Shown here in pieces: positions 6,197 through 6,437 of a stretch of DNA of 64,000 bases; the first letter of the stretch is position 1, and every line of letters starts with the position of its first letter. This DNA comes from Afipia massiliensis (GTDB taxonomy: Bacteria > Pseudomonadota > Alphaproteobacteria > Rhizobiales > Xanthobacteraceae), in the NCBI RefSeq assembly GCF_014203115.1, contig NZ_JACHIJ010000002.1, positions 372,001 through 436,000 of the forward strand, given 5' to 3'. A model generated the notes under the pieces. The model had not been told where the DNA came from. It worked only from the letters and a program-made list of their open reading frames with translations, and ran no database searches. The position numbers and the translations under genes are program-made.

Positions 6197-6272
6197 GGCC
6201 CGGTGGCGGAAAGTCTACGCGGGAGCGCGGCAAACGCTTCATATCCTGGTTCAAATCCAGGCTGGGCCTCCA
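6197..6272 (+). tRNA. Atypical tRNA, Cys(GCA)-like
   Basis: The 76-base sequence folds into a cloverleaf: a 7-bp acceptor stem (GGCCCGG / CTGGGCC, one G-U), U8, a perfect 5-bp T stem (CCTGG / CCAGG) with loop TTCAAAT, discriminator U73 and an encoded CCA. The anticodon loop CGGCAAA reads GCA, and U73 plus GCA fits cysteine. It is abnormal in three ways: position 33 is G instead of the near-universal U; the D loop (GAAAGTCTA) lacks the GG that docks with the T loop; and the anticodon stem can extend to 6 bp. It may be a specialised tRNA or a decaying copy. tRNA-Cys identity is inference. Confidence 0.55.
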
Positions 6273-6303
6273 AGTTTTGAAGTCTTTAAAGTTTTGAAGT
6301 CTT
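6272..6303 (+). repeat. 15-bp direct repeat filling the spacer between the two tRNA-like genes
   Basis: AAGTTTTGAAGTCTT occurs at 6272-6286 and again at 6289-6303, separated by two bases. The first copy begins at the last base of the upstream CCA and the second ends immediately before the next tRNA, so the two copies fill the spacer. A tandem duplication or recombination event at this point is suggested. Confidence 0.85.
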
Positions 6304-6389
6304 GGAAAGGTGGCTGAGTGGCTTAAGGCACCGCTAACGCGGCACACGGGAAACCGTGTCGAAGGTTCGAATCCTGTCCCTTTCCTCCA
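6304..6389 (+). tRNA. Atypical class II (Ser-like) tRNA with shortened anticodon arm
   Basis: The 86-base sequence has a perfect 7-bp acceptor stem (GGAAAGG / CCTTTCC), U8, a normal D arm with GG, a long variable arm (ACACGG / CCGTGT with GAAA loop), T loop TTCGAAT and encoded CCA. The anticodon arm (6331-6342, CCGCTAACGCGG) is only 12 bases instead of 17: a 4-bp stem with a 4-base loop and no usable anticodon. A five-base loss from a Ser(GCU)-type arm such as CCGCG-CTGCTAA-CGCGG would explain it. The T stem has an A-G mismatch, and the discriminator is U, whereas bacterial tRNA-Ser has G. Pseudogene or noncanonical tRNA. Confidence 0.5.
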
Positions 6390-6402: not shown

Positions 6403-6437
6403 CGCCGCTTCCCAATTGGAGGCGGCGTTCTTTTTTG
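6403..6437 (+). terminator. Rho-independent terminator after the tRNA pair
   Basis: A 10-bp stem (CGCCGCTTCC / GGAGGCGGCG, one T-G pair) with loop CAATT is followed by TTCTTTTTTG. It begins 13 bases after the second tRNA, which shows that the tRNA pair is, or recently was, a defined transcription unit. Confidence 0.9.

Follow-up and report, generated by a model that had tools for sequence, protein, structure and literature searches.

Conserved serine-type tRNA-like genes without an anticodon loop in Afipia

The non-proteinogenic tRNA-Gly species of Staphylococcus keep an anticodon, as do all of the precedents that we found for the genes described here. In the available text of the paper that describes them, these species are donors to FemXAB, and the replacement of G51-C63 by A51-U63 is listed among the changes in those of S. 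aureus, which bind EF-Tu weakly (PMC4052509). A second precedent, tRNA-Other of Bacillus cereus, has a Trp anticodon, is transcribed within a larger RNA and is thought to act outside translation, as far as the accessible part of its source goes (PMC3399842). Among the matches listed from open-licence papers, we found no description of bacterial tRNA genes that have no anticodon loop, and a 2026 tRNA survey that covered 42,109 bacterial genomes left out any tRNA whose type was undetermined, according to the portion of it available (PMC13092985).

Here we describe two such genes, A and B, in Afipia massiliensis, together with C, a tRNA-Cys-like gene upstream of A; A and C lie in the stretch of 64,000 nucleotides that we analyzed (the window). 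Like the staphylococcal tRNA-Gly species, A and B exist besides intact normal isoacceptors and carry A51-U63, reported for those species as weak for EF-Tu in the text available (PMC4052509), and C of the window has its D-loop G19 replaced. Unlike the staphylococcal species, in which GG18-19 is lost, A and B keep G18-G19, and they are serine-type class II RNAs with no anticodon loop and a bulge in the T stem, for which a donor role is proposed here from sequence. They resemble tRNA-Other in being tRNA-like and thought to act outside translation (PMC3399842, in the part available) and differ from it in that A looks like a compact unit, with a terminator-like hairpin close behind it in 7 of the 9 loci scanned. 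With the four tRNA-Ser of the same genome (GGA, CGA, UGA and GCU), A and B share the acceptor, D arm, variable arm, T loop and CCA; they differ in having no anticodon loop, in an extra T-stem nucleotide and A51-U63 and, in A, in U73. The tRNA-like domain of tmRNA is also a chargeable tRNA-like end without an anticodon loop, but A and B have a D arm and a variable arm, have no mRNA part and are ~85 nt long. Finally, tRNA-Sec (Rfam RF01852) is likewise class II with extra nucleotides in the acceptor/T branch, but the match to its model reaches 25 bits, where the cut-off is 47, and A and B have no UCA anticodon and a 7-bp acceptor with a bulge.

Structure and identity elements of gene A

Gene A (6304-6389, + strand) is a class II tRNA-like RNA of 86 nt including the CCA. 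The original prediction of a good acceptor, D arm, long variable arm and CCA, with U as the discriminator, was confirmed on the sequence, which has the acceptor GGAAAGG/CCTTTCC, a 3-bp D stem, the T loop TTCGAAT, and U73 followed by an encoded CCA (6386-6389). The long variable arm (6344-6359), named as the main serine determinant in the text available for PMC9976931, forms 6 bp closed by a GAAA loop (ACACGG-GAAA-CCGTGT). A usual tRNA anticodon arm has 17 nt; its place is taken here by a 12-nt hairpin (CCGC-TAAC-GCGG, CCGCTAACGCGG, 6331-6342), which is too short for a 5-bp stem and a 7-nt loop. That this arm would form a 4-bp stem with a 4-nt loop was borne out by the sequence and by the minimum-energy fold, in which this 4-bp/4-nt hairpin forms along with the acceptor and the variable arm; the stem columns of the hairpin are invariant in the 11 distinct alignment rows.

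The T stem had been read with an A50-G64 mismatch, which vanishes if position 6376 is taken as a bulged nucleotide, the 3′ strand being 6 nt (CCTGTC) opposite 5 nt. The bulged nucleotide is G in the window, G or C in other A genes and T in B. Opposite the 5 nt of the 5′ side, the 3′ side has 6 nt in all 10 intact A genes and all 10 B genes (7 in the decayed A of G004), compared with 5 nt in the four normal tRNA-Ser of the genome. Because the extra nucleotide is present in every intact A and B, the mismatch is better read as a bulge. The neighboring pair is A51-U63 in 21 of 21 A and B genes (the G004 copy included), as against G51-C63 in 4 of 4 canonical tRNA-Ser.

Standard searches passed over the gene: ARAGORN did not detect A in the window, and an Rfam scan of the window at gathering level gave no match. 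With a relaxed limit, the tRNA covariance model scored A at 23.9 bits and B at 24.2 bits, both below the cut-off of 29. Neither gene has the 7-nt loop with an anticodon of a decoding tRNA-Ser, the arm measuring 12 nt in A and 10 nt in B (14 in G014). Stretches of 86 nt that are 100% identical to A of the window occupy the corresponding place in four other genomes, which makes the gene more than a chance occurrence.

We compared A and B with the identity elements given in the available text of PMC9976931, which for bacterial tRNA-Ser are the long variable arm, C72, G2-C71, R4-Y69, C11-G24, G30-C40 and G73, and for tRNA-Cys are U73, G2-C71, C3-G70 and G34 C35 A36, with a tertiary G15-G48 in E. 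coli. Aligned to that list, B carries every serine determinant except G30-C40, and A is without two of them, G30-C40 and G73. With the short stem numbered from 27, pair 30-40 is C30-G40 in A and B, and likewise in the Ser(CGA) of the genome. The discriminator is U73 in 11 of 11 A genes and G73 in 10 of 10 B genes; CCA is encoded in 9 of 10 intact A genes (CCG in G017) and in all 10 B genes. A has A3-U70 rather than C3-G70, and GCA is absent. The same source, as available, describes recognition by SerRS as resting on the variable arm and acceptor elements, with the anticodon unused, so an anticodon-less serine tRNA could in principle still be charged. With U73 in place of the serine G73, A may charge poorly or with cysteine.

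The paralogue B, the partner C and the normal tRNAs

The window genome (5.33 Mb in 19 contigs) holds a paralogue of A, gene B (L002:1501-1584), which is 86% identical to A and has a 10-nt arm (CCGCGTGCGG) and G73. ARAGORN called B a tRNA-Pro at this locus, a call that is probably spurious, and did not detect it elsewhere. The minimum-energy fold of B differs from the cloverleaf. In G015, G027 and G020 the B arm (CCGCATGCGG) equals the Ser(CGA) stem CCGCA/TGCGG minus its 7-nt loop. B is preceded by a gene for a PilZ-domain protein (PF07238; L002:1199-1465) and followed in the window genome by a DUF3551 gene on the opposite strand (L002:1627-1899). In all 10 genomes with B, the gene starts 16-35 nt after the PilZ stop codon, which may be mere position; B might possibly be released from the 3′ end of the PilZ mRNA. 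Nine more PilZ matches, all in genomes without B, had no ARAGORN tRNA and no tRNA-like T loop in the locus; three of these (G005, G019 and G025, ~70% identical) are likely orthologues by sequence, and the other six (56-64% identical) may be non-orthologous. At the same threshold, 10 genomes of the genus gave no PilZ match.

The normal tRNA-Ser genes (GGA, CGA, UGA and GCU) are all intact elsewhere in the window genome. The original prediction had pointed out that Ser(GCU) is normally a single essential gene; the worry that it might be lost falls away with all four present, Ser(GCU) itself lying at L065:1216-1307. There was no support for the proposal of that prediction that the short arm arose by a 5-base deletion from Ser(GCU), since the Ser(GCU) arm of this genome (CTCGTTTGCTAAATGAG) is unrelated to it. 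The five matches to A in the genome at E<=0.001 include Ser GGA, CGA and UGA (first 30 nt only); Ser(GCU) is absent from them. Two weak tRNA-like sequences were also seen, L261 (G000:C8:2408-2466; 28.6 bits) and L262 (G000:C3:770829-770889; 22 bits), which are perhaps remnants of integration sites.

Upstream of A lies its partner C (6197-6272, + strand), which ARAGORN calls tRNA-Cys(GCA). It retains GCA, U73, G2-C71 and C3-G70, as in the cysteine list available from PMC9976931, together with CCA. Position 33 is G instead of U, and the D loop is altered, with G19 replaced and A at position 15 (in our numbering), where the list has a tertiary determinant. The tRNA model did not recover this C at E<=10. 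The real tRNA-Cys of the genome was found at another locus (L027:1501-1574; C2:63834), so that C as the real tRNA-Cys was rejected, and the D arm and U73 of that real tRNA-Cys ruled against C as a derivative of tRNA-Leu.

A is preceded by C in all 11 genomes that have it, eight times in the context seen in the window and three times elsewhere (G017, G028 and G004), with no window gene found near those three loci. GCA and U73 are kept across the 31 C genes that we read, and G2-C71 and C3-G70 are invariant or nearly so (22 alignment rows). At the A loci, only the C genes of G017 and G004 have U at position 33, the other 9 of 11 having G, A or C there; in 11 other members of the genus the anticodon loop of C has 6 nt, on our reading of the stems. 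Under the tRNA model, two copies with U33 scored 42.6 and 48 bits, and four copies without a normal loop (one each at L141 and L181, two at L245) fell below the cut-off. Of the 29 genus genomes, 24 have sequence matches to C. C-type sequences also occur in some other genera of the family, where a pattern matched 48 of 198 genomes, a figure that includes chance matches and is not a count of true C genes. This C-like family, with GCA and U73 and mostly without U33 or with a 6-nt loop, takes in 6197-6272, L181:9932-10006 and L152-L170. Two genomes of a different genus (g44) have, close to a C-type gene, a tRNA-Gly-like gene that apparently has six nucleotides (TTCCAG) in its anticodon loop (L245:501-573 and L248:753-824); it scores 53 bits as a tRNA, and a search at E<=1e-8, run without a positive control, gave no match to it in the 29 Afipia genomes.

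The spacer between C and A (6273-6303, + strand) carries a repeated unit, AAGTTTTGAAGTCTT, of which one or two copies or close variants stand in the spacers of G000, G013, G018, G020 and G026. Directly 3′ of A is a terminator-like hairpin with a T-run (6403-6437, + strand), the only one found, where shuffles of 800 bases gave a mean of 0.9. In relatives, where ~200 bases behind A were scanned and shuffles gave 0.1-0.5, a hairpin on the A strand also follows the intact A of G001, G013, G018, G020, G027 and G028 and was not found in G014 or G017, which makes 7 of 9 intact loci with the window included and G026 left out; the decayed A of G004 has a weak one behind it. A promoter scan of the window found nothing upstream. 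C and A therefore have the appearance of a single short transcription unit and would be transcribed together.

Distribution and conservation

An intact A is present in 10 of the 29 genomes of the genus (G000, G001, G013, G014, G017, G018, G020, G026, G027 and G028), with a decayed copy in G004, and B is likewise present in 10 (G000, G001, G002, G013, G014, G015, G018, G020, G026 and G027). Twelve genomes have an intact A or B and 17 have neither, some genomes being 83-85% complete. Together with the decay in G004, this makes the role dispensable. A covariance model of A and B matches all 29 genomes since normal tRNA-Ser match it too (mostly 58-81 bits), and it was score, length and sequence together that set A and B apart from these. 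Presence of A or B, mapped onto a weakly supported SerRS tree (13 rows carry it, counting G004), requires 5 changes, compared with 9.8 after shuffling; there may have been a single gain followed by losses.

Searches beyond the genus used a short-arm pattern that demands a serine-type D loop and the exact T loop, on taxon samples up to the level of the order. It found 12 of 391 family genomes, all of the genus itself (the 14-nt arm of the G014 B escapes it), and 0 of 362 genomes from 46 other genera of the family. Among 397 genomes of the order it matched 11, the window genome and ten with the loop GACTGTAAATCT; this anticodon loop marks the ten as ordinary tRNA-Tyr, and ARAGORN agreed on 2 of them. 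No short-arm copy was therefore found outside Afipia in the samples searched. When 84,980 species genomes were scanned with a pattern, the 17 stretches that matched all came from Afipia (A. birgiae 34632 and A. clevelandensis ATCC 49720 among them); they overlap the genus set and are not extra evidence. In viral contigs the specific pattern had 0 matches; a wider pattern gave 96 stretches, and the 80 loci classified, with the remaining 16 left out, were all called tRNAs with an anticodon (55 Tyr, 20 Cys, 3 Ser, 1 Thr and 1 His). Phage records held no match to A, and plasmids gave three matches of 74-78% over part of A, all from Rhizobium. On these searches we rejected a phage or plasmid origin.

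Comparison of the same locus in relatives, which the original prediction had proposed as a check, revealed a shared and strongly conserved short arm. Across seven syntenic A loci, A and C reach mean pairwise identities of 0.975 and 0.964; the intervening spacer has 0.484, the upstream flank 0.634 and downstream flanks 0.564 and 0.506. These values count gaps as differences and come from genomes with the window's context on one contig, leaving out G026, which is split at A, and G017, G028 and G004, where A lies elsewhere. Across the ten B loci, B reaches 0.969 and the flanking segments 0.45-0.73, the higher flanking values falling in or near neighboring genes. Such conservation across genomes excludes a fresh duplicate or an artefact. 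The prediction had left three options, a non-decoding tRNA with another role, a dead duplicate or an assembly artefact; the shared, conserved arm speaks for the first and against the other two.

All 275 of the 275 cells of the proposed structure pair. Two-sided changes distinguish A from B at pair 4-69 and at the second pair of the T stem. Of five measures, three lie above all 500 shuffles (the percentage of cells that pair, the cells with two-sided changes and the covariation score). The other two do not exceed the shuffles: 2 pairs changed on both sides compared with a shuffle mean of 1.6 (336 of 500 shuffles reach 2), and 5 pair types compared with a mean of 7.0 (500 of 500 reach 5). The paired changes amount to one A/B split and not to many events, and it is the conservation that carries weight. 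Folding energy alone is weak evidence, because its z-scores are unremarkable: −1.71 for A of the window, with 13 of 200 shuffles folding as well, and −0.93 to −1.58 for the other five intact A and B. The full cloverleaf lies above the energy minimum by 3.5 kcal/mol in A and 3.9 kcal/mol in B. Of the neutral divergence and broken stems that would mark a dead pseudogene, only the latter were found, and only in the G004 copy, where the acceptor and T stem have mismatches and 141 of 200 shuffles fold as well.

The gene for SerRS, serS, was located in all 29 genus genomes (L213-L241; L213, at G000:C1:123933-125219, in the window genome). Between QLPKFxxDQF and LIPTAEV the enzyme has a stretch of 32-85 amino acids in 21 of the 29 genomes and of 13-15 in the other 8. 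Only three pairs of the long stretches are recognizably alike, while the enzyme cores are 82-97% identical, and the serS neighborhood looks constant in the nine loci compared. This pattern suggests that an essential enzyme is under diversifying selection; literature on SerRS insertions held nothing relevant among the matches listed. A dedicated second SerRS was rejected, as each of the 29 genomes has one SerRS above the cut-off; weaker further matches may be ThrRS.

Proposed role and alternatives

These conserved serine-type tRNAs without the code-reading part probably donate amino acids to, or regulate, something outside protein synthesis. With about even confidence, we regard A and B as functional non-decoding tRNAs that most likely serve as dedicated aminoacyl donors to a non-ribosomal transferase. 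The acceptor stem, D/T elbow, long variable arm and CCA, on which tRNA processing, SerRS and CCA-dependent charging would rely, are all kept in them, and the parts that the ribosome uses appear to have been shed. For an anticodon-blind SerRS, the whole anticodon loop would be dispensable for charging. In C, for which CysRS would need GCA and U73, both are kept and U33 is lost. The weak T stems, with A51-U63 and the bulge, could keep the charged RNAs off EF-Tu, and charged A, B and C would then bring serine, and cysteine, to a non-ribosomal reaction. Structure, conservation, paralogy, the C-A tandem, the terminator-like hairpin at 7 of 9 loci, most of the identity elements and the T-stem signature are all read from the DNA itself, and from them we infer RNAs that would be expressed, co-transcribed in the case of C and A, charged, spared by EF-Tu and used as donors. 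As for an acceptor enzyme, none was found near A, B or C, and no constant neighbor of A suggested a transferase among the loci viewed, with Pfam run on four neighboring proteins. A FemAB-like GNAT protein (Pfam PF13480) near the C-A locus of G017 was rejected as a candidate, since a search around A, B and C in 21 further sources gave no homologue (E<=1e-3).

Alternatively, and with distinctly less probability, A and B (and C) might be tRNA-shaped regulators or decoys. Their target would be SerRS, EF-Tu, a processing enzyme or a toxin that attacks tRNAs, and binding would sequester it or serve as a sensor. For this there is the precedent of tRNA-Other, a tRNA-like RNA outside translation in the text available (PMC3399842); the constant position of B behind the PilZ stop codon in 10 of 10 genomes would allow it to be cut from the 3′ end of that mRNA, and the seryl system may be under pressure, as the hypervariable stretch in the SerRS of 21 of 29 genomes hints. 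The long stretch is, however, independent of A and B, present in 9 of the 12 genomes that have an intact A or B and in 12 of the 17 that do not. Moreover, the serine-like and cysteine-like genes both keep the cloverleaf, an encoded CCA and most synthetase determinants and drop decoding features, which favors charged donors over decoys or regulators.

It is improbable that A takes cysteine rather than serine, forming a cysteine donor pair with C while B, with G73, serves serine. The consistent split between U73 in A and G73 in B fits such a division, as do the shared G2-C71 and the finding, in the text available, that U73 alone gives minihelices cysteine identity (PMC9976931). A nevertheless has A3-U70 for C3-G70 and no GCA, and it has not lost the long variable arm on which SerRS relies. 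Still less credible is that A and B are decaying, functionless duplicates of tRNA-Ser: the G004 copy is mismatched and folds no better than shuffles, and 17 of 29 genomes have no intact A or B, but identity stays at ~97% against flanks of 45-73% (7 and 10 genomes), no cell of 275 is unpaired, and the C-A tandem persists even where no window genes are nearby. An assembly or sequencing artefact that dropped five bases can be dismissed, as short arms occur in A or B of 12 of the 29 genus genomes and differ between the two paralogues.

More tentatively, we suggest that Afipia and its relatives could run a second, non-ribosomal set of tRNAs, comprising the loop-less serine-type A and B and a cysteine-type C without U33 or a loop nucleotide, in which a serine-type and a cysteine-type member would come from one operon. 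Each would retain little beyond the requirements of its synthetase and serve as a dedicated donor for an undiscovered tRNA-dependent pathway; in an outer variant of this reading, the set may be linked to whatever drives the hypervariable stretch of SerRS. The failure of ARAGORN with A, and its misnaming or missing of B, point to a blind spot in annotation. A and B would make non-ribosomal, tRNA-dependent chemistry cleanly accessible to study, and a conserved bacterial tRNA gene without an anticodon loop would represent a natural separation of charging from decoding.
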